DNA from: Cytophagaceae bacterium
Lineage (GTDB): Bacteria; Bacteroidota; Bacteroidia; Cytophagales; Spirosomataceae
Assembly: GCA_947486835.1 (NCBI GenBank)
Contig: CANKVC010000004.1
Coordinates: forward strand, 1-33,011
Length of the DNA stretch: 33,011 nt
Direction: 5' to 3'
Part shown: one piece after another, positions 3,380-14,792 of the stretch
Numbering within the stretch: position 1 is the stretch's first letter
Layout of the letters: each line of letters opens with the position of its first letter
Translations under genes and position numbers: made by a program
Notes under the pieces: model-generated
What the model was told of the DNA's origin: nothing
The model's input: the letters and a program-made list of their open reading frames with translations, nothing else
Databases searched by the model: none

Positions 3380-3748
3380 GGGGTCGACCGGTTTTGACAG
3401 CTTTAGCAGTCTGGTTGTAAGCACGTCGGGAGTTGTAGGCATTTCCTGTTAAAAAAACCTTCGAATTATAGCTGGCAATACACAGTATGCCATGGCTGCC
3501 TAATCTGATAGATTAGACAATTTGCCATCGTCCGGCCTCTTCCAAACTCTGCCGAGGAGGATTTCTGGGCGTCGACATGCAGAGTCGATCATTAAGATTT
3601 TACTAATTAATGATTAGTACCCAGTAAATAAGTGTTAGGTAAGGTCTGATTTGAACCTATTTAACATCGAAAATGAATCAAATCTAAACGTGTAGAAGGC
3701 AATTTTACTCTAGGTTTGGACGAGGGTTCGAATCCCTCCGACTCCACA
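3380..3748 (+). ncRNA. ssrA: transfer-messenger RNA (tmRNA)
   Basis: One-piece tmRNA that rescues stalled ribosomes and tags the nascent chains. The 5' end GGGGTCG pairs with CGACTCC at 3739-3745 to form the acceptor stem, and a T-arm GAGGGTTCGAATCCCTC lies at 3722-3738. Discriminator A is at 3746; a full CCA is not encoded (ACA follows the stem). The resume codon is GGC at 3474, placed like the E. coli one after a TAG trinucleotide. The reading frame 3474-3503 encodes GNTQYAMAA and a TAA stop. The YAMAA ending resembles the Cytophaga tag as I recall it. Further downstream are several hairpin-forming stretches, consistent with the pseudoknots. The open minus-strand frame here is spurious. Confidence 0.95.
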
Positions 3749-12999: not shown

Positions 13000-13027
13000 A
13001 AAAGGGCCTGCATAAATGCAAGCCCTA
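13000..13027 (-). terminator. intrinsic terminator after tRNA-Ser
   Basis: On the minus strand AGGGCTTGCA pairs with TGCAGGCCCT across a TTTA loop (13003-13026; the C of the right arm opposite T is the only irregularity). A T6 run follows. It lies 5 nt past the tRNA 3' end, so it ends the tRNA transcript and separates it from rsmI. Confidence 0.8.
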
Positions 13028-13031
13028 AACG

Positions 13032-13116
13032 TAGAGAGTGAGGGATTCGAACCCCCGGGCCTGTAACAGCCAACAGTTTTCAAGACTGCCTCGATCGACC
13101 ACTCTGACAACTCTCT
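13032..13116 (-). tRNA. tRNA-Ser (anticodon UGA)
   Basis: An 85-nt class II tRNA. The acceptor stem AGAGAGT/ACTCTCT encloses an anticodon stem GCAGT/ACTGT with loop CTTGAAA (anticodon TGA), a long variable arm (GGCTGTTACAGGCC region) and a T-loop TTCGAAT. The long variable arm confirms serine. The discriminator position reads A rather than the usual G of tRNA-Ser, and CCA is not encoded. The D-stem is weakly paired. Confidence 0.93.
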
Positions 13117-13189: not shown

Positions 13190-13951
13190 TTAAATTCTTG
13201 ATTGAATGAAGGCCAACTTACCTTCCAACGAAAGTTCATCAGGAATCCAATGAATAGGAATGCCAGAGCGTTCCATTTTTCGAAAAAATGTCATTTGGCG
13301 TTTAGAAAATTGCTGAATAGCGATGGTCAAACCTTGTTCAAATTCAACTCGGTTAATATCTCCTTGAACTAAATTTACCAGCCATTTATATTCTAAACCT
13401 AATCTGATTAAATCATTTGGATTAATGCCATCAGCAATCAATTGTTCTACTTCTTCGACCAATCCATTATTTAAACGATTCGTTAATCGATTAGCACATC
13501 GCATTCTTCGAATTTCAGCCATAGGATTTAGGCCAAAAACAATAAAGTCACGATTCAACTTAAGAGACTCGTTTGCAAAGTCGGTCATCCTAGAAAATTC
13601 ATAATCTCGCAAAAGTGCGTCTAAATAAAGTCCCGTACCCCCACAAATAATAACTTGTTGGCCCATTGCCTCAACTTTCTCGATGGCTTTTAAAGCATCA
13701 AATTGGAAATGAGCCACAGAATAAGGTTCACCTACATCAAGAATATCAATCAAATGATATTTGACAGGGACTCCCCCATTTTGATATACATCCAAATCTT
13801 TTCCGGTACCAATGCTGAGGCCTCGATAAATTTGCCTAGAATCCGCTGAAATTATTTCCCCTTGAATGAATCGCGCCAAAGAAACAGCCAACTCAGTTTT
13901 ACCCGATGCCGTAGGTCCTAGAACAACAATGATTGGCTTATTTTTTTCCAT
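13190..13951 (-). CDS. short MiaA-like tRNA dimethylallyltransferase
   Basis: MiaA-superfamily prenyltransferase, expected to move a dimethylallyl group to A37 of UNN-reading tRNAs. The 253 residues are well short of the usual 300 or so. Present are the P-loop GPTASGKT (12-19), the catalytic-type Asp37 in ADSRQIYRG, GGTGLYL (104-110) and the C-terminal KRQMTFFRK (217-225). Missing is about 70 residues between GGTGLY and the FIVFGLNP strand, the helical insertion with the R-x-x-RALEV motif that grips the tRNA. The usual G-Y-R motif reads EYKW (187-190), and IGTAKP reads IGTGKD. It could be a core-only MiaA, or a paralogue with another acceptor. It overlaps the upstream gene by 14 bp, and tRNA-Ser(UGA), a likely A37 substrate, lies just downstream. 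Confidence 0.8.
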   Translation of the reverse strand: MEKNKPIIVVLGPTASGKTELAVSLARFIQGEIISADSRQIYRGLSIGTGKDLDVYQNGGVPVKYHLIDILDVGEPYSVAHFQFDALKAIEKVEAMGQQVIICGGTGLYLDALLRDYEFSRMTDFANESLKLNRDFIVFGLNPMAEIRRMRCANRLTNRLNNGLVEEVEQLIADGINPNDLIRLGLEYKWLVNLVQGDINRVEFEQGLTIAIQQFSKRQMTFFRKMERSGIPIHWIPDELSLEGKLAFIQSRI

Positions 13952-14792
13952 GAATCAAGAGCCTAGATTTAATGTTTCCTGAATTACAGGCATCAGCTGT
14001 TTTAACATCTTTTGCAAGAACTCGTTTCCCATTTTCTGCTATATTGAAATGCAAAGGAACAGTAATGAGTTCGTTTTTAAAACCAATTTTCTGAAAGGCC
14101 ATTCCACCACTCCATTCCAAATCCGAATAGGTCATTATATTATCTACCTGATGCATGTTGGCATAAAATGAAATCAATTTTGTGAGTCCGCCTACGAGCC
14201 TAACGGAAGGATCCGTACAAATTTGAATCAATTCGGCTGAAATTTGAGCATTTCCATTCTCCGTTTTAAATACTCGGTCCTTGCCAAAAACGGCTATAGC
14301 AATCAGTGGATTTCCATCTACGTCAAATTCAGATTGAATATTACGAAATTGTCGGTGTGGCGGAACAATACAAGCCAAATAGGTTTTACCTCTTAAAAAG
14401 CCCAATAAATGATTTTTATCTGCAAATTTTCGAGCGTCCTTTTCCTCTAACATCACAACTTTCGTATCACGCGCAAAAATAGAAATGGGTTTATTGATTC
14501 GAAATGTCAGAAAATTCAAAATCCAATTCTTTTTATAATTCCAAACATCTTCCCAAATTCGAAAAGCTGAAAAACCATCACTTCTAAGGTTTACAATTTC
14601 TTGTTGGAAAGCAGCTAATTTACCTGAATCCAACCTTTTAAATTCAGCTAAACAAATCCCCTGAATGATGATTGAATTTTCTTTCGATTTCCAAATTGGA
14701 AAACTATCTTGCATATATGTTTGTCGTTCAAACCCTAATGAGGCAAGATGAACATCCAATTCAAGATAAAAATTTGATTTTTCGGGAATCAT
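13938..14792 (-). CDS. uncharacterised protein resembling the C-terminal module of phage Hef-type endonucleases
   Basis: A 284-residue cytoplasmic protein without signal or membrane segments. I do not recognise a named family, but the motif order is familiar from phage Hef-like homing endonucleases. An I-(F/W)-E-D-x-W segment with following Lys appears here as IWEDVWNYKK (79-88). Next comes IFARDTKVV (105-113), then KNHLLGF (126-132), a strand with VFGKDR (168-173), VGGLTKLISFY (200-210), TYSDLEWSGG (221-230) and QKIGFKNE (234-241). The second half looks like a GNAT-like fold. The N-terminal 20-75 region may be the remnant of a VSR-like nuclease fold. The gene overlaps the short miaA-like gene by 14 bp, so the two are translationally coupled. 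No transposase or phage gene is near. Function unknown. Confidence 0.65.
   Translation of the reverse strand: MIPEKSNFYLELDVHLASLGFERQTYMQDSFPIWKSKENSIIIQGICLAEFKRLDSGKLAAFQQEIVNLRSDGFSAFRIWEDVWNYKKNWILNFLTFRINKPISIFARDTKVVMLEEKDARKFADKNHLLGFLRGKTYLACIVPPHRQFRNIQSEFDVDGNPLIAIAVFGKDRVFKTENGNAQISAELIQICTDPSVRLVGGLTKLISFYANMHQVDNIMTYSDLEWSGGMAFQKIGFKNELITVPLHFNIAENGKRVLAKDVKTADACNSGNIKSRLLIHGKK

Follow-up and report, generated by a model that had tools for sequence, protein, structure and literature searches.

MiaA and Mom, two of the closest described systems, both modify adenine at N6 (PMC8234997 for MiaA, PMC7824862 for Mom). In E. coli MiaA, K23, T24, H67 and R217 take part in DMAPP binding, K56, R167, R170 and K280 contact the tRNA, T19 and Y47 serve the transition state, and D42 is the general base (PMC8234997). 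A survey of jumbo phages described fusions of Mom and nuclease domains and counted five momylating enzymes in phage PA5oct (PMC7824862). Here we describe a bacterial locus in which the gene for a MiaA paralogue overlaps the gene for a Mom-like protein.

The window, the whole stretch of 33,011 nucleotides that was analysed, is contig C4 of a draft genome that totals 2.09 Mb and is 89.9% complete. On its minus strand, positions 13190..13951 encode a 253-residue P-loop prenyl transferase (MiaA2) that is reduced to the core and lacks the helical insertion of MiaA, and positions 13938..14792, also minus, encode a 284-residue partner with a Vsr-like nuclease remnant and a Mom-like GNAT domain. The end of the partner gene overlaps the start of MiaA2 by 14 bp (13938..13951, minus strand); a first-pass annotation of the window had given both reading frames and this overlap, and both were borne out. 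A similarly tight, same-strand spacing of the two genes was found again in other genera. In a tree, the window MiaA2 clustered with those of Aquirufa aurantiipilula, A. nivalisilvae and A. antheringensis, placing it in the Aquirufa clade. Compared with close relatives, dN/dS was 0.09-0.20 for MiaA2 and 0.18-0.31 for the partner, and both are thus under purifying selection. The window also holds a tmRNA gene at 3380-3747 on the plus strand (tag GNTQYAMAA).

A tRNA-Ser(TGA) gene with the sequence A36-A37-A38 (13031..13116, minus strand) lies 73 bp downstream of MiaA2. It was found at this place in 16/16 Aquirufa-clade loci tested and also in the sister genus, and in 0 of the other genera tested. 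It therefore belongs to the locus as local synteny, and a functional link is only suggestive. The tRNA gene is followed by a terminator-like stem-loop (13003..13026, minus strand; a consensus match only), which is possibly the end of the transcription unit.

The window MiaA2 is clearly related to MiaA, as shown by profile searches. It matched Pfam IPPT (PF01715) with an E-value of 6.9e-40 and 137.7 bits, compared to a weak match of 28.5 bits to PF01745, and scored 150.1 bits against TIGR00174 (miaA), barely above the cut-off of 148.65. The first-pass annotation had asked whether the genome holds a second miaA, and a canonical copy is indeed present in the same draft genome, as two pieces at contig ends, which rules out the housekeeping miaA as the identity of the window gene. 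These fragments (L001, at the end of contig C89, and L002, at the end of contig C118) differ at several residues in their common stretch, from which we conclude that the draft genome is probably a mixture of strains. Related genomes contain a complete canonical miaA (~300 residues) alongside the short MiaA2. A MiaA tree, computed without the insertion columns, split the canonical proteins from the paralogue clade to which MiaA2 belongs with support of 100/98, so that the window protein is not an orthologue of canonical housekeeping MiaA.

The two groups also differ in sequence motifs. In MiaA2 proteins, GTGKD and GLEYK/R stand in place of the canonical GTAKP and LGYK. In the window protein, the clade signature GLEYK (residues 185-189; 13385..13399, minus strand) replaces LGYK/VGYR and corresponds to V-G-Y-R of E. 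coli. Among 136 MiaA-like ORFs, 124 had GLEYK/R, 6 the canonical LGYK and 6 neither. The altered G-Y-R motif noticed in the first-pass annotation is therefore real, but it is a trait of the whole clade and not decay of the window copy. MiaA2 is common across Bacteroidota, often without the partner. In one genome (G038, 98% complete) the sole MiaA detected was of the MiaA2 type (G038:C31:26625-27335; L069, L310), which suggests that the long form of MiaA2 is able to do the housekeeping job, and another (G207) has two MiaA2-type genes (C3:88857-89570 and 580432-581142) in addition to canonical miaA. Five records titled 'Spirosoma fluviale' (L210, L212, L216, L220 and L235) have an Aquirufa-type short MiaA, two of them sitting beside the window MiaA2 in the tree, and their titles are probably misassignments.

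The residues needed for chemistry are retained in the window MiaA2. Alignment with E. coli MiaA placed its P-loop, GPTASGKT, at residues 12-19 (13895..13918, minus strand), with Thr14, Lys18 and Thr19 equivalent to E. coli Thr19, Lys23 and Thr24. The IPPT core with its P-loop and catalytic Asp, Thr and Arg is present, and the set of chemistry residues comprises Thr14, Lys18, Thr19, Asp37, Tyr42 and Arg155; H67 of E. coli aligns with a Tyr that adjoins a His. Judged by this alignment, the chemistry of the enzyme looks intact. The helical insertion with which MiaA grips the anticodon stem-loop is absent: E. coli residues 124-175 and 185-193 were unmatched, and the junction left by the loss of 124-175 falls at about residues 119-134 of MiaA2 (13550..13597, minus strand). 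R167 and R170 were lost with the insertion, so that two of the four tRNA-contact residues tested are gone, and the equivalents of the other two, Lys51 and Lys217, are kept. The loss had been put at about 70 residues; the gap is smaller, about 60 residues relative to E. coli and about 50 relative to longer members of the MiaA2 clade.

Insertion length was measured across the clade as the spacing from the GG.G.Y motif to the next R-rich motif. This spacing was 37-38 residues in all Aquirufa-type MiaA2, 28 in a protein in which partner and MiaA2 are fused, and at least 87 in the other MiaA2 measured. The core-only form was thus limited to Aquirufa, its sister genus and the one fused protein, and loss of the insertion was confined to MiaA2 from lineages that also carry the partner. 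Most partners accompany a longer MiaA2 that retains the insertion. The core-only form arose late, in Aquirufa and its sister genus, with the fused protein as the one further case.

What is the partner? Direct searches of the window protein against Pfam, NCBIfam and PDB sequences gave nothing significant, and it had no direct match to Mom models, although its relatives and profiles do match. The resemblance to the C-terminal module of phage Hef-type proteins noted in the first-pass annotation was confirmed by matches to the C-terminal part of the phage profiles phrog_3339 ('homing endonuclease', 1e-23) and phrog_559 (1.3e-19), and phrog_3339 was matched by 37/37 partner relatives. Of these relatives, 12/37 also matched the Mom-like phrog_1384 (best 6.8e-9) and 3/37 Pfam Mom (best 4.3e-4). 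An AlphaFold2 model of the partner, built with 19 relatives in the alignment, reached pLDDT 89.0 and pTM 0.85 and has a GNAT fold. Foldseek matched it to many GNAT enzymes, including phage Mu Mom (PDB 8bv8, probability 1.00), and with the fused relative Mom was the best small-GNAT match. A profile-profile alignment (hhalign) of partner and Mom gave an E-value of 3.8e-8 and placed H128, E187 and D224 of the partner opposite H48, E98 and D139, which are invariant in the Mom family. The Mom serine whose mutation inactivates the enzyme aligns to V200, and a nearby S/T position (T204) varies to D or G; the alignment therefore shows no clear counterpart of this essential serine. Searching viral contigs with Mu Mom returned near-copies only.

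The Mom-like GNAT domain spans residues 103-262 (14007..14486, minus strand) and is preceded by a degenerate Vsr/REase-like domain (residues 1-100; 14493..14792, minus strand) that has IWEDVW at its end. These first 100 residues align with the nuclease domain of phage Hef-type / REase-Mom proteins, PA5oct proteins being among the best phage matches, and for a homologue from Klebsiella phage Muenster the annotation lists an HHpred match to 1CW0, the Vsr endonuclease. The phage nuclease motif (E/D)xxGxxWH was present in 3/3 phage proteins (as IEYNGCYWH, FEFNGMYWH and IEFDGLYWH), compared to 0/37 partners and 0/80 of those in named genomes. Given its relation to Mom-type GNAT enzymes and the missing catalytic motif in its nuclease domain, the partner is a dead-nuclease, Mom-like protein. 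The earlier reading as GNAT-like or Hef-like was right on both counts, but the partner is better described as a GNAT protein related to Mom, preceded by a Vsr-like nuclease domain that is dead. The missing motif also excludes an active homing endonuclease. As for homing-type mobility, the partner lies beside miaA2 in many genera, and all 16 genomes of the genus that are at least 90% complete carry it adjacent to MiaA2, a distribution that speaks against such mobility. Phages such as PA5oct, RaK2, Muenster and Campylobacter phages themselves encode many 'homing endonuclease' proteins with a C-terminal Mom-like GNAT domain, at up to 11 places per phage, and this name probably conceals a base-modifying domain.

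The two genes occur together well beyond one species. Among 242 genomes of the order, the partner was found in 45, MiaA2 in 44 and both in 43, where MiaA2 was counted at an E-value cut-off of 1e-40 with the addition of three Aquirufa genomes with the known short form. Fisher's test gave 4e-44 when counted by genome and 1.4e-17 when counted by genus; these values take no account of phylogeny and overstate the evidence. A large share of the genomes were draft assemblies. The genes were neighbours in 22 of the 43 genomes and apart in 21, so linkage alone does not explain their co-occurrence. In a sample of the phylum, MiaA2 was present in 8/8 partner genomes. The pair extends across Cytophagales and related groups. 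Among named genomes, 473 partner relatives were recovered, and gene order was examined at the best 80 of these: partner and then MiaA2 were same-strand neighbours in 77 and a fused ORF in 1, and MiaA2 was absent at 2 (at one the contig ended 180 bp downstream, and at the other a different gene was next). The existence of a real module is strongly supported by these data. Comparison of neighbouring genes revealed no third gene common across genera like the pair.

No tie of the pair to a mobile element was found within the genus, where it is stable, and there was no plasmid match, so that a plasmid origin was rejected. A known defence system was also rejected, as the partner had no PADLOC match; a weak match of MiaA2 to mads_8 covered the P-loop region only and was taken as cross-talk. 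No common ancestry of the partner and MiaA was found. In the open-licence literature we found no earlier description of a MiaA-Mom pair, and one may exist outside it.

In Cytophagaceae bacterium SCN 52-12 (L250, 3833-5443), the partner and MiaA2 are joined by a linker in a single ORF of 537 residues, and the MiaA2 half again has no insertion. As this fusion is one ORF in a draft genome, an assembly error is possible. In the tree the protein sits on a long branch apart from the Aquirufa clade, and a single loss of the insertion shared by it and Aquirufa was not rejected (AU p 0.119). Both halves of its structural model were predicted with high confidence, including a MiaA2 core that folds confidently without the insertion. 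The linker was disordered and the packing of the halves was not confident (pTM 0.63), which makes the model unusable for the partner-MiaA2 interface. Foldseek with this model favoured tRNA isopentenyltransferases (9e-16) over adenylate isopentenyltransferase (1e-7; 2ze5 among the matches).

What might such a pair do? The partner hardly ever occurs without MiaA2, and MiaA2 often occurs without the partner; it is thus most likely that the partner acts on the product or the substrate of MiaA2. MiaA and Mom both act on adenine N6, and the simplest reading is a joint modification of adenine in RNA, probably tRNA. Judged from sequence, the partner and MiaA2 may form a two-protein module that jointly modifies adenine N6, with tRNA A37 as the likeliest target, and we give this reading a chance just short of even. 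MiaA2 would be a catalytically competent dimethylallyl transferase for N6 of adenine, and the partner a putative Mom-related enzyme of GNAT fold whose target would be that same adenine or the RNA that holds it, with its dead Vsr-like nuclease domain as a possible nucleic-acid grip. The end product could be i6A carrying an additional modification, or a tRNA on which both enzymes have acted. A complex of the two proteins is probable in Aquirufa, and in it the partner would replace the grip of the MiaA helical insertion; this would account for the loss of the insertion from MiaA2. More tentatively, the pair might be one machine on tRNA making an uncatalogued adenine hypermodification, with the partner as the first RNA-linked relative of Mom, a possibility that we regard as somewhat doubtful.

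Several observations argue against joint modification. Many other Bacteroidota have MiaA2 but no partner, and in one genome MiaA2 stands alone as the sole MiaA, so that it does not need the partner. Two partner genomes have no MiaA2, and in one of these the partner lies 180 bp from a contig end. The essential serine has no clear counterpart, and the halves of the fused protein showed no confident packing. In addition, the Mom proteins known so far act on DNA.

Of the alternatives, a partner that only binds survives best, followed by modification of DNA and then by prenylation of nucleotides. In the first, the partner would be a non-catalytic accessory subunit that selects or holds the substrate, and MiaA2 would produce ordinary i6A in some of the tRNAs. 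The retention of a dead nuclease domain, the unclear Mom-type serine and the confinement of insertion loss to partner-bearing lineages would all fit such a role. However, H128, E187 and D224, conserved on invariant Mom columns, exceed the needs of binding, and the MiaA2 of most partners still has its insertion, and we consider this explanation unlikely.

Vsr-like domains bind DNA, and the module could modify DNA adenine in the manner of Mom, with MiaA2, freed from tRNA by the loss of its tRNA grip, as a DNA prenyl transferase, perhaps against restriction. Both Mom and the phage REase-Mom proteins are linked to DNA modification (PMC7824862). We nevertheless find this improbable, as the loci share no common nuclease or defence gene, PADLOC had no match for the partner, the pair is vertical, stable in the genus and not on plasmids, and MiaA2 retains K51 and K217, tRNA contacts in E. 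coli.

It is very improbable that the core-only MiaA2 prenylates free nucleotides, as a cytokinin-type adenylate isopentenyltransferase does, and that the partner acylates the product. Adenylate isopentenyltransferases of the Tzs type do have the same mechanism without the large tRNA-gripping domain (PMC8234997), and the 2ze5 and weak PF01745 matches point the same way, but tRNA isopentenyltransferases fitted far better by both bit score and Foldseek, MiaA2 was not closer to Tzs or plant adenylate isopentenyltransferase than to these, and most partnered MiaA2 retain the insertion. A relic origin, in which a phage homing endonuclease was domesticated and the resulting partner adjoins miaA2 without a common function, is hardly credible: homology to phage Hef-type proteins and the lost nuclease motif would fit it, but it is contradicted by co-occurrence of the genes even when unlinked, by their repeated adjacency, by the one fusion and by purifying selection.

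Joint modification of adenine by MiaA2 and its partner, if true, would be an undescribed two-enzyme adenine modification in a group of environmental bacteria that is widespread. The Mom superfamily, discussed until now for DNA, would be tied to RNA, the unexplained second miaA of Bacteroidota would gain a role, and there would be an example of how the tRNA clamp of a MiaA can be lost. Strains of Aquirufa, Dyadobacter, Pedobacter and Larkinella are available in culture.

How does the pair compare with known systems? MiaA2 resembles MiaA (TIGR00174, PF01715) in its P-loop core, general base Asp, Thr, Arg217 equivalent and KRQ.T motif, and its best PDB matches are tRNA isopentenyltransferases. 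It differs in lacking the insertion, in having GLEYK and GTGKD, and in being a second copy, from a separate clade, beside canonical miaA. Adenylate isopentenyltransferases (Tzs, plant IPT) are likewise core enzymes without a large tRNA clamp that use the same mechanism (PMC8234997), but the sequence and fold scores of MiaA2 are clearly lower against them than against tRNA isopentenyltransferases. The partner shares with Mom its fold, a profile alignment (E 3.8e-8) and the conserved H, E and D positions; in contrast to Mom, it has an additional degenerate nuclease domain and no clear counterpart of the essential serine, and it is bacterial and tied to MiaA2, not to Com or phage DNA. With the phage Hef-type / REase-Mom proteins (phrog_3339, phrog_559; PA5oct, RaK2, Muenster) it has in common the two-domain layout, the IWEDxW linker and the entire C-terminal domain, whereas it lacks (E/D)xxGxxWH, is probably not mobile and is teamed with MiaA2.
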